22,223 bases of DNA from a virus. The notes beneath the pieces are model-generated. The model worked only from the letters and a program-made list of their open reading frames with translations. It was not told where the DNA came from and did not search any database. The stretch is taken from positions 1-22,223 of the IMG/VR virus record IMGVR_UViG_3300042449_000295. One strand, given 5' to 3'. Shown piece after piece: positions 1,677 through 21,511 of this stretch; the first letter of the stretch is position 1; the number at the start of each line of letters is the position of its first letter. A program made the position numbers and the translations under genes.

Positions 1677-2237
1677 ATGGCTTGGAAAGTAACTACTGCA
1701 CCTGTTAATGAACCTTGGACTCTTGCCGAGGTTAAAAGCTATTTAAAGATTGATGATTCTAACGAGGATTCAATGTTAAATACTTTAATAAAAGGTGCAA
1801 GGATGGTGGCAGAAAGTTATCTTAACCAAGCATTAATTACACAAACAATAACGGAGAAGTTTGATAGGTTATCTAATCCAACTATTTACCTTAGTGTATC
1901 TCCAGTTATTGCCGTTACTAATTTCCAGTATGCAGACAGCCAAAATACTACGCAAACCTTTGCAGCGACAGAATATGTCGTTGACACATTTAGTAAACCA
2001 GCACGGCTCTCTCTTGCTTACGGGAAAACATGGCCTACACTTTACGGAAATATAAATGATGTAACGATTACTTACACGGCTGGATACGACACAGAAAGTA
2101 GTGGTGTGCCATTTCAAATAAGACAAGCTATTCTTTTAATGGTAGCTGATACCTACGAGAATAGACAAGATTACGTTAGGAAATTACCTACTGCATCTCA
2201 ATATTTACTTGACCAATATCGCGTTCAATATTTCTAA
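1677..2237 (+). CDS. Head-tail connector, gp6-like
   Basis: This 186-residue protein resembles the HK97 gp6 / phiE125 gp8 head-tail connector family, which forms a ring below the portal. The N-terminus WTLAEVKSYLKIDDSNEDS, followed by a helix with ARMVAESYLNQALITQ, is the family hallmark. A central beta-rich section carries YLSVSPVIAVTNFQY, and a C-terminal helix carries PFQIRQAILLMVADTYENRQD. It lies directly after the capsid gene, as usual. The ATG follows an A/T-rich leader without a Shine-Dalgarno sequence. Its stop (TAATG) overlaps the head-closure start. Family assignment is firm from motif and position; ring formation is inferred from homologues. Confidence 0.88.
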   Translation: MAWKVTTAPVNEPWTLAEVKSYLKIDDSNEDSMLNTLIKGARMVAESYLNQALITQTITEKFDRLSNPTIYLSVSPVIAVTNFQYADSQNTTQTFAATEYVVDTFSKPARLSLAYGKTWPTLYGNINDVTITYTAGYDTESSGVPFQIRQAILLMVADTYENRQDYVRKLPTASQYLLDQYRVQYF

Positions 2238-4381
2238 TGAAGTATAACAAAAATGAAATTATTGGTCGAATGCGTGACAGGATAACTATCCAAAATGTCA
2301 CACGTTCAAAATCAGACACAGGCTATGCTTCCGAGTCATGGGCAGATTTAACTACCGTTTGGGCGAATGCCGAAAGCAAGTTACCTCCATCCAATGAAAC
2401 GGTAATAGATGGTAAGAATACTGCTAAAAATATTAGCGACTTTACTATAAGATATACGACAGGCATTGATGAAGAAAGTCGTATTATTTGGAATGAGAAG
2501 TTATATCAAGTAAGGAATATAAAGGTAAGTCACGATAGAAGATTTATAAGTTTTCAAGGTGAGTTCTACGACTCATACATACTTACCGGTGTTTCCGTTG
2601 CTGCCATTCTTACAGCCAATGCCAGTGTATCATCTAATATTAAAGTGATACACAATGTCCTTGCTGCAATGAATGCCATAGCAACGACAAACGCTGAATT
2701 AACAGTTACTCAACAAGGTCAAGTCTTGGTGGAGGCTTCTCTCTCCGCATCTGGCAATCTTTCTGCTGATGCTACAAAAGTGATACCAATTAATAGCGAT
2801 GTTACGGCAAATGGCACTTTAGCTGCTGCAGTAACTAAAGCTATAAATATAGATAGTACAATAAATGCAAATGCTACTTTAGTAAGCGATGCTTTAGTGA
2901 GTAAAACTTTATTAAGTACATTAAATGCAAATGCTACGACATCGGCTGATGTTGATGTAGTAACGCAAGGCTCTGTTAGTGTAGATGCATCTTTAACAGG
3001 ATTAGGCACTGTTGCTGCTGAAATTAAGCGCACAGTTACATTAGAAAGTAGTTCAAGCACAAGCGCAACGACAGAATTAAACGCTACACTTACCAAAGTA
3101 ATTGAGGCAAGTGCAACGGCTACGGCTAACACACAAAGTACAGCACAGTTAACCATACCAGTAAACGCAGCTGCAAATGCTACGGCTAACACATCGGCAG
3201 ATGCTACATTATCCTATACAGTCAATGCCGAGTTAAATGCAACGGCACAAACAACGCTTGACGCACAGATAACAAGGATTATCTCTGCAGAAATGACTGC
3301 AACTGCACAGACAACGGTTGAGGCAGGCATCGGTGTTACGTTTGTTTCTTCATTAATGGCTTATGGTTCTGTTACTAATGCAAGTATTTTAAGAACGGCA
3401 ACTCTTGAAAGTTCTTTAACTGCCAATGGCACAACTGCTGCAACAATAACTACGGTTGACAATGTATCGGCAAGTATAACGGGAACGGCAACGGTGACGA
3501 GTGCGACGTTAGATGTAGCTGCGCCTACTGTATCGGTCGAATACCTTGTTATTGCTGGTGGTGGTTCGGGTGGTGGTGGTGGTACTGTTGCTCATGCTGG
3601 TGGTGGTGGTGGTGCTGGTGGTTATAGATGTTCAGTTGTAGGAGAAAATAGTGGTGGGAATACATCTGCTGAATCTAAATTAACATTAACAAAAGGTACA
3701 ACTTATACTATTACAGTAGGTGGTGGTGGTTCTGTTCCAGCACAAAATGTAGAAGGTAATAGTGGTACTGCAAGTTCTATAAGTACATTAGTGACCACAG
3801 TTGGCGGTGGTGGTGGTGGTAAAGGTAATTCTGGAGTAGCTAAAACAGGAGGTTCTGGTGGTGGTGGTGGATTTGGCACTAATGGTGCAAATGGAACAAC
3901 AAATGAAGGTAAAAAAGGAGGTAATTCTATTGATACTCTTCCTGATACTAATTATAGAAATGGAGCTGGTGGTGGTGGTGCTGGTGCTGATGCTCAAAAT
4001 GTTGTTAATACTGCAAGTGTTGCAACTGCTGGAGGAGCGGGCATAAGTTCTTCAATTACTGGTTCAAGCGTACCAAGAGCTGGAGGCGGTGGCGGTGGTG
4101 CTGGAAGGATTGGTAGTAGTTCATTATCTGGCGGTGCAGGTGGAAATGGAGGCGGTGGTGCTGGTGGAGATTCATCAGGGTCGCCAACAAATGGTGGAGA
4201 TGGTACTGATAATAGAGGTGCTGGTGGTGGTGGTGCTGCCAAAACAATGTCTGGTGGTAAAGGAGGTTCTGGAGTTGTAATAATATCTGCTGGTATTGCC
4301 GCAGTATCAACAACTGGTTCACCGAGTAACCCAAGTTTAGGTGTTTATATATTTAATGGCGATGGTTCAATTACATTTTAA
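2237..4381 (+). CDS. Head-closure protein fused to repeat fibre and glycine-rich adhesin domain
   Basis: This 714-residue protein has three parts. Residues 1-113 match the phage head-tail joining / head-closure family (SPP1 gp16-like), with GRMRDRITIQ, a WADLTTVWANAES segment and IIWNEKLYQVRNIK. Family members normally stop at about 110 residues. Residues 117-430 are about 15 degenerate 20-22-residue Ala/Thr/Ser/Asn-rich repeats. Residues 434-714 form a glycine-rich domain that opens with VEYLVIAGGGSGG, carries several poly-Gly runs and closes with GGSGVVIIS and GVYIFNGDGSITF. That is the layout of glycine-rich phage tail and adhesin proteins. The frame is open throughout with no internal stop, and it starts coupled to the connector. 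I infer a neck-anchored fibre or whisker that may bind host surfaces. Internal initiation, for example at Met145, could also yield a separate fibre protein. Confidence 0.8.
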   Translation: MKYNKNEIIGRMRDRITIQNVTRSKSDTGYASESWADLTTVWANAESKLPPSNETVIDGKNTAKNISDFTIRYTTGIDEESRIIWNEKLYQVRNIKVSHDRRFISFQGEFYDSYILTGVSVAAILTANASVSSNIKVIHNVLAAMNAIATTNAELTVTQQGQVLVEASLSASGNLSADATKVIPINSDVTANGTLAAAVTKAINIDSTINANATLVSDALVSKTLLSTLNANATTSADVDVVTQGSVSVDASLTGLGTVAAEIKRTVTLESSSSTSATTELNATLTKVIEASATATANTQSTAQLTIPVNAAANATANTSADATLSYTVNAELNATAQTTLDAQITRIISAEMTATAQTTVEAGIGVTFVSSLMAYGSVTNASILRTATLESSLTANGTTAATITTVDNVSASITGTATVTSATLDVAAPTVSVEYLVIAGGGSGGGGGTVAHAGGGGGAGGYRCSVVGENSGGNTSAESKLTLTKGTTYTITVGGGGSVPAQNVEGNSGTASSISTLVTTVGGGGGGKGNSGVAKTGGSGGGGGFGTNGANGTTNEGKKGGNSIDTLPDTNYRNGAGGGGAGADAQNVVNTASVATAGGAGISSSITGSSVPRAGGGGGGAGRIGSSSLSGGAGGNGGGGAGGDSSGSPTNGGDGTDNRGAGGGGAAKTMSGGKGGSGVVIISAGIAAVSTTGSPSNPSLGVYIFNGDGSITF
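2585..3526 (+). repeat. About 15 degenerate 20-22-residue coding repeats
   Basis: The encoded repeats follow the loose pattern of alternating small residues xxLNATATTxADxxxxxxI, for example AELNATAQTTLDAQITRIIS followed by AEMTATAQTTVEAGIGVTFV. Period is about 60-66 nt. Copies have diverged, so this is a protein-level repeat rather than a DNA satellite. The alternating hydrophobic pattern suggests a beta-rich stalk. Twelve N-x-S/T tripeptides occur within residues 128-411. Confidence 0.75.
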
Positions 4382-4392
4382 AGAATAAATAT

Positions 4393-4761
4393 ATGGCACA
4401 CTTTGCAAAACTTGATGTAAATAATTATGTAATTGGTGTTCACGTTGTTGTGAATGAGGTTATTACTATAAATGGTATTGAAAGTGAACAAGTTGGAATA
4501 GATTTTTTAACCAATTTGCACGATTATAATTTATGGAAACAAACATCTTATAACGGCAACTTTCGCAAAAACTATGCTGGCATTGGCTACTATTACGATA
4601 GCATTAGGGATGCTTTTATTCCTCCTAAACCTTTTCCCTCATGGACATTGAACGAGCAAAGTTGCCTTTGGCAATCACCTATACCATATCCAAATGATGG
4701 TAAAGAGTACACATGGAATGAGGAAACAGGCAACTGGGAAGAAATAAACCTAACACAATGA
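4393..4761 (+). CDS. Phage structural-region protein of unknown function (WKQTSYNG family)
   Basis: This 122-residue protein begins MAHFAKLDVNNYVIGVHVV, then carries WKQTSYNGNFRKNYAGIGYY, YDSIRDAFIPPKPFPSW and a C-terminal PYPNDGKEYTWNEETGNW. I recognise this combination as recurring in small proteins beside tail or fibre genes of many environmental phages, usually annotated hypothetical. There is no signal peptide or membrane segment, and it is rich in Trp, Tyr and Asn. It sits between the adhesin-like head-closure fusion and a glycosyltransferase, and its stop overlaps that gene's start by 4 nt. A virion-associated or adhesin-accessory role is inferred only from position. Confidence 0.7.
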   Translation: MAHFAKLDVNNYVIGVHVVVNEVITINGIESEQVGIDFLTNLHDYNLWKQTSYNGNFRKNYAGIGYYYDSIRDAFIPPKPFPSWTLNEQSCLWQSPIPYPNDGKEYTWNEETGNWEEINLTQ

Positions 4762-5732
4762 AAATAGCCATTTTTACTAACATCAACTCTCCAGCTACCG
4801 ACTTTTACCGAACAGTTGGCTGCTATGCCTACATGGGGCATGATATAAGATACCTTGCCATTGAATCGGCAAAGTGGTTTGATTTAATGGATGTTGATGT
4901 TGTAGTGGCTAAATCTCCTAATGGCATGGCATACTTTGAAATGCTAAGAGAGTGCAAGAGAATGGGTAAGAAGATTATTATTGACCATGACGATAATCTA
5001 CACGAAACAACAAGGACTAATCCGGCACACGCTGGACTAAGCCATGAGGCAATGCGTAAAACGGTGGAGGATTGCTTCGGCTTTGCTGACCACATTATTT
5101 ATTCTACCGATGCCTTGCAAAAATACTATATGCCTTATCATGAAGGCATTGCAAGCACAGTTATAAATAATGGATGGAATCCAATTATTCAGCCATTTAT
5201 GCCAGTGCCTAAGATAGAAGATAAGATAAGATTTATTTGGCGCGGTTCTATGCACCACTTGGATGACATAGGCAGTATAGCAAGTTATATAAATGAGTTA
5301 TCGGAAGATGAGAGCTGTGATGTTGCCATGCTTGGCATACAGGATTTTATCATGGCTCACTTGTTTCCAAAGGTAAAAACAAAGGAATGGAATAGTTCTT
5401 TGTTTGGCTACTTTGAAACATTAAACAATAGCCAATGCCATTACGGTTTATTTCCGTTACTCAAAAACGATTTCAACTTTGCAAAGAGTAATATATTTGC
5501 CATTGAAATGTTAGTCGCTGGCGGTGTAACGATTGCACCAAAGGGAATACCAGAGTACAATATACCAGGTGTGATAAAGTATGAGGACTTTGGCGATGTT
5601 ATGGAGGCAGTAAAAAACAAGGATTTTGACAGAGAGGCAATAGTGAAGGAGGGAAGGGAGTATTTGAACGATGTGCTTAGAGTGGACAAGACAAACAAAA
5701 AGAGAGAACTAATTTTAAATAATTTAAACTAA
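4758..5732 (+). CDS. GT-B-fold glycosyltransferase-like protein
   Basis: This 324-residue protein looks like a single-chain GT-B glycosyltransferase of the GT4-like type. The N-terminal half has KIIIDHDDNLHE (residues 72-83) and an IYSTDAL...TVINN stretch (114-138), both typical of this group. The C-terminal nucleotide-sugar half has WRGSMHHLDD (161-170) and GLFPLLKNDFNFAKSNIF followed by a Glu and AGGVTIA (230-260), resembling the donor-binding E...AAG.P motif. No signal peptide is seen, so it acts in the cytoplasm. Its start overlaps the previous gene (ATGA). Position inside the structural block suggests a virion protein as acceptor, possibly the neighbouring repeat-rich fusion, but cell-surface modification is an alternative. 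Sugar donor and acceptor are unknown. Confidence 0.8.
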   Translation: MKIAIFTNINSPATDFYRTVGCYAYMGHDIRYLAIESAKWFDLMDVDVVVAKSPNGMAYFEMLRECKRMGKKIIIDHDDNLHETTRTNPAHAGLSHEAMRKTVEDCFGFADHIIYSTDALQKYYMPYHEGIASTVINNGWNPIIQPFMPVPKIEDKIRFIWRGSMHHLDDIGSIASYINELSEDESCDVAMLGIQDFIMAHLFPKVKTKEWNSSLFGYFETLNNSQCHYGLFPLLKNDFNFAKSNIFAIEMLVAGGVTIAPKGIPEYNIPGVIKYEDFGDVMEAVKNKDFDREAIVKEGREYLNDVLRVDKTNKKRELILNNLN

Positions 5733-5738
5733 TAAACT

Positions 5739-6149
5739 ATGGCGGCTTTTTCAGATTATTTGGAAGACCAAATAACAGCATGGATTGCAGGAACAACTTT
5801 TGCAACTGCTCCAACGGCAACTTTTGTGCAGTTGTATAATGGTAATCCGACAGACACAGGCTCTGGTGGTACTCCTATTGTAATTGCAACTGCGGCAAGA
5901 ACATCTATTGCGAGTGGCACAGGGTCATGGACAAGAGGTACAGGGGGAAATGGTACAATTACAAATGCATCTGCTTTTACTATTACAACAAGTGCAACAG
6001 CTACGGCATCTGCTACTTACGTTACAGTTTGGGACGCATCTGCATCTGGTAATTTACTTTTCTTTGGTCTATTAACATCTGCAAAAACTATTGCAGTAGG
6101 TGATGAGGTTAAGTTTAACTCATCTGCATTAACCTTAACAGTTGCCTAA
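5739..6149 (+). CDS. Small phage tail-fibre-like structural protein
   Basis: This 136-residue protein matches the layout of a widespread small phage protein family often labelled tail fibre-like or minor structural. It has an N-terminal helix DYLEDQITAWI, then TAPTATFVQLYNGNPTDTG, a beta-rich Thr/Ala stretch with TYVTVWDASASGNLLFFGLL, and a final KTIAVGDEVKFNSSALTL. Soluble, no signal peptide. It closes the accessory group inserted between head-closure and tail-completion genes and is followed by a hairpin. A virion surface role is inferred from family resemblance and position; the exact location in the particle is unknown. Confidence 0.7.
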   Translation: MAAFSDYLEDQITAWIAGTTFATAPTATFVQLYNGNPTDTGSGGTPIVIATAARTSIASGTGSWTRGTGGNGTITNASAFTITTSATATASATYVTVWDASASGNLLFFGLLTSAKTIAVGDEVKFNSSALTLTVA

Positions 6150-6151
6150 AT

Positions 6152-6190
6152 ATTAGGAGAATGCTTAGGTGTTCTCCTAATTAATATTTT
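6152..6190 (+). terminator. Hairpin between accessory and tail-completion genes
   Basis: A perfect 10-bp inverted repeat (ATTAGGAGAA at 6152-6161, TTCTCCTAAT at 6172-6181) has a 10-nt loop and is followed by TAATATTTT with four T's at 6187-6190. It occupies nearly the whole 44-nt gap between two genes. The T-run begins several bases after the stem, so termination may be partial. Confidence 0.6.
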
Positions 6191-6193
6191 ACC

Positions 6194-6778
6194 ATGACTT
6201 ACATTACGCAGAGCCAAATATCAAGGTTAAGAAGAGCAAGCGCAACAGGTGCTAAAAGAAGAGGCTTGTTTGCTAATGGTTTGGCAGAATGTGTGCTTGA
6301 ATTAGATGACATCTTATCAAAGATAACAGTTGATAAAAGAATGGATGTAATCAATGCCGCAATGCCTGCTGCGATAAATATATATAAGTCGCTTATTCCT
6401 GTGTCTAAAAAAGAACACAAAATAAGTACGTTTTCTAAAGGTGTAGGTAAGGCAGATGGCAATGGTAATTATAGGTATATAGTTAAACCTGGCAATCTAC
6501 AAAGGTCTGTAAAAGGATTAAGCCAATTACTAAAAAAATACAAGTGGAATAATGGAGCAATAGGGCCTCATTACATTCCACAGCCAGTAGGTTCTACTTT
6601 AAACAGTGAACAAAAATACGATGGCTTTTACGCTCACATGGTTTATGGCTCTGCCAAAGCATGGAGGCAAAAGATAGTCTTAAAAGCAAAAACTATGTCT
6701 GCATCTGTTGTTTATCCAAAGATGATAGCAGAGGCAAAGGAAGTAGTTATGATGTACCCTAAAAAGTTTTGGGAATGA
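6194..6778 (+). CDS. Tail-completion protein, HK97 gp10-like
   Basis: This 194-residue basic protein resembles the HK97 gp10 / neck tail-completion family. The region from about residue 50 reads INAAMPAAINIYKSLIPVSK, as in the family's conserved helix followed by a SLxxSI-like beta block (GNLQRSVKGLSQLLKKY). The C-terminal part has a YDGFYAHMVYGSAKAWRQ segment resembling the YAxxVExGT pattern, then a terminal helix. Order relative to the gp17-like and tail-tube genes is canonical. The last bases overlap the next gene by 4 nt (ATGA). It is preceded by a hairpin and AT-rich leader, so it may sit at the start of a processed transcript segment. Confidence 0.72.
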   Translation: MTYITQSQISRLRRASATGAKRRGLFANGLAECVLELDDILSKITVDKRMDVINAAMPAAINIYKSLIPVSKKEHKISTFSKGVGKADGNGNYRYIVKPGNLQRSVKGLSQLLKKYKWNNGAIGPHYIPQPVGSTLNSEQKYDGFYAHMVYGSAKAWRQKIVLKAKTMSASVVYPKMIAEAKEVVMMYPKKFWE

Positions 6779-7164
6779 TAGGAAAGGTAATTTACGGAAG
6801 GTTAAGCGCAGAGCCAACAGTCATAGCGATTGTAGGGCAAAAGATTTATCCAGACTTAACTCCGCAAGACGTGCAATATCCTTTCTGTGTTTACACCATA
6901 GTTAATTCTACTCCCGTTGATTACAAGGATGGACAAAGTAACTTGGAGGAAGTGCAATTTCAAGTTGACTGCTATACGCAAAGTTACGATAGCACACAAG
7001 AGCTTGCAAACAACATAAGAAATAGCCTTGATAGGTTTACGGGAACAGTGAACGGTATAAGTGTACAAACGATAAAATATATGTCAAGCGATTCACAGGT
7101 TTACAATCCTACGCTAAATGTATATTGGATGTCAGTTGATTTTATGGCAAGAATGAAACGATAA
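6775..7164 (+). CDS. Tail-completion protein, SPP1 gp17-like (DUF3168 type)
   Basis: I chose the ATG at 6775, which overlaps the previous stop as ATGA, over an in-frame TTG six bases upstream; this gives 129 residues. The sequence starts MIGKVIYGRLSAEPTVIAIV, then has IYPDLTPQDVQYPFCVYTIV, EVQFQVDCYTQSYDSTQELA and a C-terminal YWMSVDFMARMKR strand. These are the marks of the small tail-terminator/completion family that caps the tail tube and joins it to the neck. Length (about 120-135) matches. It lies one gene before the tail-tube cluster, as in most siphoviruses. Confidence 0.82.
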   Translation: MIGKVIYGRLSAEPTVIAIVGQKIYPDLTPQDVQYPFCVYTIVNSTPVDYKDGQSNLEEVQFQVDCYTQSYDSTQELANNIRNSLDRFTGTVNGISVQTIKYMSSDSQVYNPTLNVYWMSVDFMARMKR

Positions 7165-7884: not shown

Positions 7885-8214
7885 ATGAAAACAATAAAAA
7901 TAGCTAATGCGGACATACCAGTTAAGTTTGGTATGTTCGTGTTAGGTACATTTTTACGGGAGAGGAATCTAAAACTTAGCGACCTCTCCCAACTTGGCGA
8001 AGACCTCCTATTTGCTCTTGAACTTGCTTTTGCTGGTGTGCAGGCAGGTTACAAGGCAAAGGGAGAGAAGTGCCCATATACCTTAGAAAAGTTTTGCGAC
8101 TTAGTAGATTTAGACAAGGGAGGGATAAATAGGATAACGGAGCTGATAACAAATGAGATTTCAGTGCCAGAAGATCCGGAAAGAAAAAACGAGATAGCGG
8201 AGGAGCAGAATTAA
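7885..8214 (+). CDS. Tail assembly chaperone (gpG-like), unshifted product
   Basis: This 109-residue protein lies between tail tube and tape measure, the invariant position of the tail assembly chaperone. It is mostly helical: KFGMFVLGTFLRERNLKLSD, a central LLFALELAFAGVQAGYKAKG helix and an acidic C-terminus ending PERKNEIAEEQN. The chaperone binds the tape measure and recruits tube subunits. The slippery heptamer A AAA AAC near its end, in correct phase, and an open -1 frame downstream show that a longer G-T fusion is also made. Assignment rests on position, size and the frameshift rather than on sequence motif. Confidence 0.85.
   Translation: MKTIKIANADIPVKFGMFVLGTFLRERNLKLSDLSQLGEDLLFALELAFAGVQAGYKAKGEKCPYTLEKFCDLVDLDKGGINRITELITNEISVPEDPERKNEIAEEQN
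8184..8190 (+). promoter_or_regulatory. -1 programmed ribosomal frameshift site (A AAA AAC)
   Basis: Bases 8184-8190 read AAAAAAC with zero-frame codons AGA AAA AAC, so the heptamer X XXY YYZ is exactly in phase. A -1 slip continues into a frame that is open from here to the stop at 8528. A 6-bp stem (AACGCT 8213-8218, AGCGTT 8230-8235) lies 22 nt downstream, farther than the usual 5-9 nt, so its role as stimulator is doubtful. Confidence 0.88.
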
Positions 8215-8528
8215 CGCTTGATTATATAGAGCGTTTTTGCTTTGGAGTGTTAAGATTTTCCCCTTCGCAATACTATGAAATGACATTGAGAGAGGTTATT
8301 ATAGCCATGCAAGGTTATAATAACCAATTTGAAATAGAGCAGCAATTTGAGTGGGAGAGAGCCAGGTGGCAAACAACACTTTTATTGAATGTTCATACGG
8401 CAAAAGGAAAGTCAATTAAGCCTAAAGATTTAATAGAGTTTCCTTGGGAGACAGATAACGTAAAACCAACTAAAAGAAGTTTGTCAGAAGTTGACAAGTC
8501 AATTTTTGAGAAATGGGATAAAGAGTAG
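8190..8528 (+). CDS. Tail assembly chaperone C-terminal extension (gpT-like), made by -1 frameshift
   Basis: This frame is best read as the C-terminal part of a 214-residue G-T fusion (7885..8190 joined to 8190..8528 by a -1 shift). After the slip it encodes AELTLDYIERFCFGVLRFSP then SQYYEMTLREVIIAMQGY, which resembles the gpT-type segment seen in many phages (an xxLRxSPxxFxxMTxxEFxxxxxGY pattern). A GTG at 8247 could be taken as a start, but it lies inside this conserved segment, and no ATG or ribosome site precedes it. Ends KSIFEKWDKE, 3 nt before the tape measure ATG. In lambda the longer GT protein bridges tape measure and tube subunits; the same job is inferred here. Confidence 0.85.
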   Translation, partial: RDSGGAELTLDYIERFCFGVLRFSPSQYYEMTLREVIIAMQGYNNQFEIEQQFEWERARWQTTLLLNVHTAKGKSIKPKDLIEFPWETDNVKPTKRSLSEVDKSIFEKWDKE

Positions 8529-19756: not shown

Positions 19757-20290
19757 TTATCTGTTTAAATAGTTTTTACTTGCGACTGGATCTTTGCCCT
19801 GGTCTTTATATTTGGCATCTTCTTTGCTCGCATAGTCGGTGTATGGCATTTCCGAAATATCATGGTAGCAGATTTGTGCAATCTTCATATATGGATAAAT
19901 CTTTACAGGTTGTACACAAACAAGTTCTAAAGTCCAATGCCCTTTAAAATTGACATCTCCAAAGCCTGCCGTTACATGGACAAATAATCCTAATCTTCCA
20001 AGGCTTGATTTACCTTGTATAATTGGCACATGGCGAAGAGTCTCGGTGTATTCAACTGTTGAGGCAAGATATAAAACATTTGGTCTTAAAATAATTCCTT
20101 CTTCCGGAATAATAAAAGGAGCATAAGCATTCTTCTTTCTTGTGTCAAGAATAGTATCTGTGTACATTAGCAAAGTGTTGCTTAGTGTTAAATCAACACT
20201 ATTAGTACCAATGTTTGCCTCTATCAATGGCTCGATAACAATGTTGCCAGCCGCTAATTCGTCAAAGATGGTTTTGTCGGTTAAAATCAT
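19757..20290 (-). CDS. dcd: dCTP deaminase (possibly bifunctional with dUTPase)
   Basis: This 177-residue enzyme is of the dCTP deaminase / dUTPase fold. QGKSSLGRLGLFVHVTAG (residues 92-109) carries the conserved KSS.aRlGL and TAG elements, and HWTLELV (118-124) contains Glu122, the expected deamination base. SVDLTLSN near residue 31 is the N-terminal Dcd motif. The usual DPGF is GDVNF here, a change in the substrate loop that I cannot interpret. It converts dCTP to dUTP, or directly to dUMP if bifunctional, feeding the ThyX reaction encoded upstream. No separate dUTPase is seen in the window. Overlaps the previous gene by 4 nt. Confidence 0.9.
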   Translation of the reverse strand: MILTDKTIFDELAAGNIVIEPLIEANIGTNSVDLTLSNTLLMYTDTILDTRKKNAYAPFIIPEEGIILRPNVLYLASTVEYTETLRHVPIIQGKSSLGRLGLFVHVTAGFGDVNFKGHWTLELVCVQPVKIYPYMKIAQICYHDISEMPYTDYASKEDAKYKDQGKDPVASKNYLNR

Positions 20291-20571: not shown

Positions 20572-20873
20572 TTCTTTAAATCATTTAGTTCTGGATGTGT
20601 AAAATAAAACTCGGTCAGCATTGCGGCATTGCACATTAGGTGTGCTGAGTGCAGTAATCCACTTTCATTGTCAATCATTTCACCAAGTCGCATTGCTTCC
20701 AGGTGACGCATAGCGGAGGCAATGACAACAGAAAAAGGAAAGCCTTTCTCCCAATTACCAGCAGGATACTTCTCTAAACCTTGCGTCCACACCTTTGCAT
20801 ATTCCCTTTGCGCAATGGCTGGGCAAAGGTCGTAGCGTAATTTATTTTCATTGTGTCGAATTGCTATATTCAT
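20568..20873 (-). CDS. dATP/dGTP diphosphohydrolase-like protein (N-terminal domain family)
   Basis: The 101-residue protein reads KLRYDLCPAIAQREYAKVWT, LEKYPAGNWEKGFP and SAMRHLEAMRLGEMIDNES followed by GLLHSAHLMCNAA. This KxRxDL.P....A.V...G..KY...NW..G....A..RH..A...GE..D.ESG..H..H pattern is that of the phage dATP/dGTP diphosphohydrolase N-terminal family, an all-helical MazG-like fold. The Glu, Asp and His residues would bind metal and triphosphate. It covers the domain without a C-terminal extension. It probably trims dNTP pools. It is coupled at both ends by ATGA overlaps with ThyX and the 94-residue gene. Actual substrate unproven. Confidence 0.72.
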   Translation of the reverse strand: MNIAIRHNENKLRYDLCPAIAQREYAKVWTQGLEKYPAGNWEKGFPFSVVIASAMRHLEAMRLGEMIDNESGLLHSAHLMCNAAMLTEFYFTHPELNDLKK

Positions 20874-21511
20874 AAATGAAATGCTTCTAAAGATAATATA
20901 AATTTATTTGTAAGTTTTAACTCATGCAACATCTCCATGGCTATATATCTTGTTTCTGCCTGGGCATTTGCATCAATGCGTAGCTTAAACATATTTATGT
21001 ACGCGTAGAGCGATCCTGTCCAGATAAAGGTAGTATTTAAGTTTAACGGTAGGATAGTACGCGCTTGTTCTTTACTTACTCCAAGTTCTATTAACGTGTG
21101 ATATGCTCTTTTAGCATAGTCAATCATTTGCTCCTCTATAAACTTTGCCTTCTCTGCCACATCGGTAAACAACATACCATCGCTGCCTTGCTTACTTGAT
21201 TTGCTTTGTTTTCTCCATACATTTACCTTAGTGTATGTATCTGAGAAATCAACGTATCTACCAGAGATACTATTGGCAGATAAGCCTACTTGATGCTTGA
21301 ACAAATGCCGCTCAACGTAGATAGGGCAAGTTATCCGGTACTGTAATTGTGGATGGCGAAAGGGCGAAGTGTGACCATGTGAGGCAAGGTAATTTATAAG
21401 ACTTTTGTTTTCCATACTCGTGTAATGGGTTGCGTCCTTGCCATAACTAACGCGAGCTGCGTTAACTACCATTTCATCATTGCCAAATATTTCTAATAGT
21501 TCTACTTTCAT
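20870..21511 (-). CDS. thyX: Flavin-dependent thymidylate synthase ThyX
   Basis: ThyX methylates dUMP to dTMP using methylene-tetrahydrofolate, FAD and NADPH. This 213-residue protein has ARVSYGKD near residue 20, HGHTSPFRHPQLQYRITCPI (46-64) and the signature area ERHLFKHQVGLSANSISGRY (67-86), then INMFKLRIDANAQAETRYIA near the end with the conserved Arg and AQ.E.R. The usual RHRxxSxNExSxRY is altered: KHQ stands near the RHR place with one extra residue, and Glu is Ser81. Length fits the family. Coupled by ATGA to the downstream gene. With dCTP deaminase it makes a dTMP supply route. Confidence 0.92.
   Translation of the reverse strand: MKVELLEIFGNDEMVVNAARVSYGKDATHYTSMENKSLINYLASHGHTSPFRHPQLQYRITCPIYVERHLFKHQVGLSANSISGRYVDFSDTYTKVNVWRKQSKSSKQGSDGMLFTDVAEKAKFIEEQMIDYAKRAYHTLIELGVSKEQARTILPLNLNTTFIWTGSLYAYINMFKLRIDANAQAETRYIAMEMLHELKLTNKFILSLEAFHL

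Follow-up and report, generated by a model that had tools for sequence, protein, structure and literature searches.

Organization of the neck locus

The analysed window is a 22,223-base stretch of DNA from an uncultured virus, and the functions given below are all inferred from sequence or from models. It carries the end of a protease gene, an HK97-type capsid gene (388-1614), a gp6-like head–tail adaptor gene (Ad1; 1677-2237, plus strand; PHROG 442, E 9e-32) that is exchanged jointly with the head-closure gene, an extended head-closure gene (2237-4381, plus strand) encoding a 714-residue fusion with matches to Phage_HCP and Gly_rich_2, the cassette, a gp10-like gene (6194-6778), a gp17-like tail-completion gene (6769-7164) and then tail genes. 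The cassette is composed of three genes on the plus strand, for a WKQTSYNG-family (WKQ) protein (4393-4761, 122 residues; PHROG 7759, of unknown function, 4e-43), a glycosyltransferase-like (GT) protein (4758-5732, 324 residues) and a Gp80-family fibre subunit (5739-6149, 136 residues). An earlier note had placed three genes at 4393-6149 between head closure and the gp10-like and gp17-like genes; the open reading frames are found there, and a strong hairpin follows them. The order of a type 1 neck is Ad1-Hc1-x-Tc1 (PMC4362835), and homologues of Ad1, Hc1 and Tc1 lie in this order in the window (PHROG 442 and 40, Phage_HCP, Tail_completion_gp17). The gp10-like gene lies between Hc1 and Tc1, where Ne1 would be expected, and has no family match above cut-off.

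The terminator-like hairpin at the cassette end (6152-6181, plus strand) has a folding energy of -16.6 kcal/mol, compared with a mean of -5.8 for shuffled sequences (z -5.1), and none of 200 shuffles is as stable. In a simple terminator scan of the region it is among five sites, with 3.8 expected by chance. Inspection of the relatives by eye, without folding, shows a stem of other letters after Gp80 in most of them and none in loci L140, L145 and L146. Elsewhere in the window, two small genes (7885-8528) stand ahead of the tape-measure gene and presumably resemble a tail-assembly chaperone pair, which might be joined by frameshifting; an 18-pair hairpin (7904-7945) lies at the start of the first of them. 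We take the proteins at 19757-20290 and 20870-21511 to look like a dCTP deaminase and a ThyX thymidylate synthase, respectively.

Two neck states among relatives

From 218 relatives found in a scan with the capsid protein, the best 80 were analysed; 11 of these 80 contigs do not include the head-closure gene, and the remaining 69 were counted. Among these 69 loci, from the best 80 of 218, the head-closure gene is extended in 32, some of them cut off by the contig end (plus loci), and is of the short type in the others (minus loci), with 35 complete 114-residue forms and two cut-off ones. Within the same best 80 of 218, the 114-residue head-closure gene runs straight into gp10 in all 33 minus loci whose contigs extend that far, and 1,313-2,257 bases lie between head closure and gp10 in all 14 plus loci that reach gp10, among them two near-copies of the window, L003 and L004. 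The fusion in these plus loci is 626-714 residues long. The order of head closure, gp10 and gp17 that the earlier note called canonical is that of the 33 cassette-less loci, and it also agrees with the neck order outlined in PMC4362835. No Gp80, WKQ, shaft, tip or cassette-type GT was found in the 329 kb of DNA searched at the 37 minus-type loci. The swappable, variable module that had been proposed thus shows real presence and absence, and a uniform gene order in all relatives is not what we observe.

Identity of the major capsid protein (MCP) to the window overlaps between the states (85-100% in plus and 85-98% in minus loci), and that of the gp6-like adaptor is 77-100% and 73-80%, respectively. 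The two head-closure alleles are merely 37-42% identical, so an alternative neck block moves and not a simple insertion. The neck state changes ten times on a quick MCP tree (70 rows, 62 of them different, with SH-aLRT as the sole support measure), and nine of the changes are forced by well-supported branches. In L094, the GT and Gp80 are 98 and 87% identical to those of the window, yet gp17 and the tail tube are only 30 and 46% identical; this cassette in a differing backbone points to a probable transfer between lineages.

Boundaries of the exchanged blocks

We compared the window with 13 minus loci. On the left side, all 13 lose homology to it at 2257-2305. On the right side, it restarts at 6189 in six (L006, L008, L011, L022, L023 and L033), which places the right cassette boundary at 6189-6193, just 5′ of the gp10-like gene; it restarts later in the other seven, at 6476 in L057 and at 6764-6849 in six. 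A right-hand variation boundary had been predicted at 6152-6190, and the first six loci agree with it. The left-hand prediction, near residue 114 of the fusion, does not hold. In L011, the sole cassette-less locus profiled base by base, DNA identity falls from 0.87-1.0 through the capsid gene to 0.70-0.76 from about 1690, so the large exchange starts between capsid and gp6 in this pair. Residue 114 appears in these comparisons as the end of the short protein and not as a boundary of DNA exchange.

Downstream in L011, gp10 and gp17 are 82 and 76% identical to those of the window and similarity recovers at the tail tube (97%). Since it is still lowered in gp10 and gp17, the exchanged block may extend beyond 6189 in that pair. 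Both gp10 alleles (one of at least 70% identity, the other of less) occur in both states, 19 and 46 times in plus and 6 and 27 times in minus loci when second copies of a contig are dropped, and this favours breakpoints located between the Gp80 and gp10 genes.

Architecture of the head-closure fusion

The fusion is divided into three parts. First, residues 1-114 (2237-2578, plus strand) form the head-closure (Hc1) anchor, which matches Phage_HCP/gp16_SPP1 (Phage_HCP, 1.9e-15) and, above cut-off, TIGR01563, and whose profile matches the solved head–tail adaptor 2kz4 (5e-8); all complete minus head-closure proteins are 114 residues long. Second, residues ~115-390 (2579-3406, plus strand) form a shaft of repeats with a period of 20 residues (z 10.6 against 200 shuffles, residues 111-425). 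Lastly, residues ~391-714 (3407-4378, plus strand) form an exchangeable tip with a glycine-rich domain at 422-685 (Gly_rich_2, 3e-12). The fusion has three protein matches in the phage collection, all within residues 7-109, and its extension is unmatched there.

The three parts differ in conservation. In 19 relatives, with L003 and L004 left out as identical to the window, mean identity per block is 0.90-0.95 over residues 1-120, 0.70-0.86 over residues 121-390 and 0.23-0.48 beyond, and a nested exchange of the tip begins near residue 391. About 150 residues are missing from the shafts of L040 and L043. At the DNA level, in a comparison with 12 plus loci, the first long similar stretch reaches to 3265-3628 in ten loci and to 2571 in L040 and L043, and several loci show short similar pieces beyond it. 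Similarity restarts at 4561 in six loci, partly because of an optional insert in the WKQ protein, at 4709-4713 in three and at 4757 in L040; other restarts lie at 4262 in L007 and only at 5697 in L043, and L048, one of the first six, has an extra piece at 4453-4553.

Pfam finds a Gly_rich_2 tip in the window and in 12 of the 18 other fusions scanned. Other tips match Laminin_G_3 (L041), a stretch resembling ArabFuran-catal (L024) and DUF6923 (L040, and below cut-off L043), and the same scan found no named tip domain in L012 and L049; the alternatives to the glycine-rich tip include matches that appear lectin-like and sugar-hydrolase-like. The tree of the Hc1 domain, with 52 rows, has 14 changes of tip type, eight of them forced, and tip type clusters no more than by chance (152 of 500 shuffles are as low).

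Regarding structure, residues 428-689 of the tip model match the tail tip of Bxb1 (9d93_Qb) with a Z of 14.0 and the fibre of Pam3 (7ypx_A) with a Z of 11.9, and the next matches are the glycine-rich domains of ALK (Z 5). The AlphaFold model of the whole fusion has a mean pLDDT of 49.6 and is poor outside the tip, head-closure domain included, so the shaft could be a β-solenoid, a rope or disordered. The AlphaFold confidence of the shaft is low, and its weak structural matches to β-helices were set aside. The shaft holds ten N-x-S/T sequons against 6.0 in shuffles, which we dropped as evidence of glycosylation because p 0.037 is too weak; a second glycosylation motif is unenriched (1 against 1.6).

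The WKQTSYNG protein is paired with the tip

The WKQ gene follows 36 of 37 glycine-rich tips (glycine fraction above 0.2) and none of 27 others (Fisher 3e-17, uncorrected for kinship), in a count of complete fusions with second contig copies dropped and near-copies kept. The one exception is L030, with a glycine-rich tip and no intact WKQ gene. On the Hc1-domain tree, an average of 7.8 out of eight independent pairs show the gene tracking the tip (median p 0.008). The last WKQ codons persist just 5′ of the GT gene, with the rest of the gene gone, in L012 and L024, which have tips of other types, and in L030; they look like the scar of a replacement or loss. After the DUF6923-type fusions of L040 and L043 we observe an unnamed gene of 278-287 residues (8404-9240 in L040, 5645-6508 in L043) replacing WKQ, which in L043 also stands in the place of the GT; its L040 product has no Pfam match. 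L012 (8767-9015) and L024 (9357-9623) have an 82-88-residue protein, without a Pfam match in L012, after fusions that end in NYYAIY or TYYAIY, and it is a possible partner gene of this tip type.

The WKQ model has a pLDDT of 88.9, and its residues 1-78 match 7ypx_a with a Z of 5.6 and an rmsd of 2.0 over just 54 residues, a score that can reflect a common arrangement. This is the only chain with Z of at least 2 among 55 aligned to the model, and the matching N-terminal half is also the variable part of the protein. Tip and WKQ model thus each match a different chain of 7ypx, which supports a fibre–chaperone pair. Beyond residue 43 the model has no helices, and the conserved helical C-terminal trimerization domain of Tfa/gp25 is missing from it; its C-terminal half is unlike gp25. 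The best-matching viral models are uncharacterized or unnamed proteins; a Pfam search to 0.1 gave no match, and the WKQ profile found nothing useful among PDB sequences. We regard the protein as a probable chaperone of the glycine-rich tip, which would work like a fibre chaperone but is not placed in the Tfa/gp25 family. The WKQTSYNG family occurs in 37 phage records, where it is mostly annotated as hypothetical. Of the four records examined, Bellamy and phiPsal1 have it near genes annotated as tail fibre, in DSL-LC04 its neighbour is a lectin-like gene, and in CRP-143 it follows tail tubular genes.

Gp80 and the proteins upstream of it

The cassette's last protein had been read as small and tail-fibre-like, and Pfam indeed assigns it to the Gp80 fibre family (PF23140, 6e-25; 88.4 bits against a cut-off of 27, model positions 1-128 of 128). 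Its PHROG, 240, is labelled 'head protein'. A phmmer search matches it to the solved chain 8jou_a (10 chains) at 2e-10, from a structure that we take to be that of GP4. By protein, the phage collection holds one match only, in Roseobacter phage CRP-4 (36%).

A scan with the Gp80 alignment contributed 80 of 103 loci, and all loci together give 91 Gp80 rows. No upstream fusion is visible in the 16 rows that start less than 2.6 kb from a contig end, and the other 75 were counted. Gp80 is preceded by a long fusion in 74 of the 75, or in 63 of 64 without 11 second or near copies, a recount that still includes other near-copies. The upstream gene is an extended Hc1 in 61 rows, a cut-off shaft or tip in four, a long protein with another N-terminus in nine and the head-closure gene of L160 in one. 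The last of these ends at 159 residues inside the shaft and is tip-less, yet Gp80 comes next (L160, 6294-7393); it is either a natural deletion or an assembly fault.

Two kinds of N-terminus other than Hc1 occur: one is shared by L123, L124, L130-L134 and L145, and the other is that of L140. No backbone gene of the window was seen in the DNA examined at these nine loci. Their tips include Gly_rich_2 in L123 and ArabFuran-catal-like matches in L130 and L145, and Pfam gives no match for the tips of L133, L134 and L140. PHROG 10356 ('virion structural protein') is common to L130, L135 and L140. In the fusions of L134 and L140, the N-terminal domain matches no PHROG family at a useful E-value, and that of L140 has no PDB match. 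The L140 fusion lies after an Ad2-type adaptor and a 178-residue gene and before the tail sheath, a gene position that suggests a neck protein. Gp80 would be a second component of the fibre, perhaps as beads located on its shaft or its base.

The glycosyltransferase

The cassette GT is 96-98% identical in 12 near loci and 67% in L055 and L076, while the tips vary. It accompanies all 44 Gp80 of at least 67% identity and none of the 31 below, a line that was set after seeing the data and with near-copies among the counted loci, and the linkage may be one of mere adjacency. PHROG 7162, a glycosyltransferase family, is matched at 1.5e-19; a match to NCBIfam is far below cut-off, Pfam gives none to 0.1, profiles of PDB chains none to 0.01, and the phage collection, searched by protein, none. 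Five minus loci and one plus locus carry, upstream of the capsid gene, a second GT of the same family that is 37-39% identical to that of the cassette (L016, 1897-2883; L026, 1639-2625; L031, 732-1718; L037, 991-1977; L052, 1007-1996; L079, 1642-2628). We propose only tentatively, and with some doubt, that the cassette GT glycosylates Gp80, the constant shaft or another constant part of the fibre, which is the weakest step of our model; modification of the host surface ranks next.

If the latter were its role, the region could be a moron-type island: the GT would alter host surface sugars for superinfection exclusion, and its neighbours would be passengers unrelated to it. PHROG 7162 is classed under 'moron, auxiliary metabolic gene and host takeover', and since its paralogue ahead of the capsid gene occurs in plus and minus loci alike, such a GT is not generally tied to a fibre. 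However, the 31 of 75 Gp80 loci that are without the GT still have the fusion and Gp80 where upstream DNA is present, except for L160; tip, WKQ protein and Gp80 all match fibre parts, and tip and WKQ are swapped as a pair. We therefore consider such an island unlikely.

Proposed model of a neck fibre

We consider it likely that the region encodes an optional, recombining and modular neck fibre built onto the head-closure ring, and this fibre most likely touches the host surface. From the homology of residues 1-114 we infer that the fusion is located in the virion neck, and the predicted parts suggest a role of the cassette in surface interaction. In this model, the head-closure protein would be both a ring subunit and the anchor of the fibre, from which the repeat shaft would lead to a C-terminal tip contacting the host surface. 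The WKQTSYNG protein would serve glycine-rich tips as their cognate chaperone or cap, given its strict linkage to the tip and its match to the same solved complex, 7ypx. Gp80, from its family, could supply beads on the shaft or the base, and the GT might glycosylate Gp80 or another constant part. Recombination would act on three scales, exchanging the gp6-Hc1-fibre block for a block with a bare short Hc1, joining the fibre cassette to different gp10 alleles and swapping the tip with its partner gene.

The fusion could alternatively be an assembly aid, with an extension that is cleaved or that serves head–tail joining and is not adhesive. Minus loci indicate that a 114-residue form can suffice, but the tips vary by whole domains, some of them lectin-like, and reassort freely, which is the pattern of receptor-facing parts, and the glycine-rich domain matches fibre domains; we hold an assembly aid to be quite unlikely. 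Assembly errors or chimeric contigs are a most improbable source of the presence and absence, for although every counted relative is a metagenome contig and L160 is odd, both states recur with open frames and consistent layouts (14 of 14 and 33 of 33) and the breakpoints recur at the same places.

The optional neck fibre may be part of something wider. Tip, chaperone and Gp80 could constitute a plug-in adhesin that becomes fused, at the gene level, to various proteins of the virion close to the neck, namely the head-closure ring in these siphophages, an unrelated protein in the myophage L140 and a third N-terminal domain in L123, L124, L130-L134 and L145. We rate this as just short of an even chance; if true, the system would be a general one for building neck fibres, transferable and equipped with matched parts of its own. 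Host contact of phages is usually sought at the tail tip, and here a neck-ring protein that is otherwise ordinary would bear a long adhesin-like fibre that comes and goes and whose tips reassort freely among close phages. Phages that are nearly identical but differ in having the fibre genes or in the kind of tip constitute a natural experiment, and the pairing with the tip suggests a role for the WKQTSYNG family.

Comparison with known systems

A limited literature search found no fusion of head closure and adhesin in titles or abstracts, the phage collection holds no near-identical DNA, and the genome contigs searched with the Hc1 domain and with a capsid alignment contain no relative. The neck passage structure (NPS) of lactococcal 936 and P335 phages is an optional neck protein, present in 73 of 113 phages, with a constant N-terminus and exchangeable carbohydrate-binding C-termini, and weak binding to host cells was shown for one NPS domain (PMC6669499). 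The cassette fusion is likewise optional, with a constant N-terminus and exchangeable C-termini. Unlike the NPS, for which a BppU-like N-terminus is predicted, its anchor is a Phage_HCP/gp16_SPP1 head-closure protein, and it has separate Gp80, chaperone-like and GT genes; the collar of TP901-1 is described as non-essential. The cassette fibre would thus work like an NPS but is not classed as one.

The Anabaena myophage A-1(L) has bead-chain neck fibres of gp82, gp81 and gp80 (PMC10966104), which are likewise anchored at the neck, are made of repeated subunits and end in a distal carbohydrate-binding module. According to PMC10966104 this module failed to bind the host, so neck fibres need not bind receptors, which counts against a receptor role here. 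The fibre genes of A-1(L) differ in being separate and far from other structural genes, and in a pentadecamer as the docking site of its gp82. The window Gp80 belongs to the same family (PF23140) as the fibre I protein gp80 of GP4, although GP4 is a podophage. Its gp80 dimers are reportedly arranged on a rope protein.

In Pam3, the fibre gp24 was solved with its chaperone gp25 (7ypx), whose variable N-terminal β-sandwich (residues 1-55) grips the glycine-rich domain of the fibre (PMC9608196). The cassette is similar in its glycine-rich tip and in the variable N-terminal domain of its candidate chaperone; however, the Pam3 fibre docks to the baseplate, and gp25 has the helical C-terminal domain that the WKQ model lacks. 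The Alteromonas phages A5 and V22 show that modules of fibre and chaperone can be shared between distant phages (PMC10579305), with the difference that theirs is a tail fibre and that of the cassette a presumed neck fibre. What differs in the cassette is its anchor, which is the head-closure protein itself, unlike the fibres of the NPS and A-1(L).
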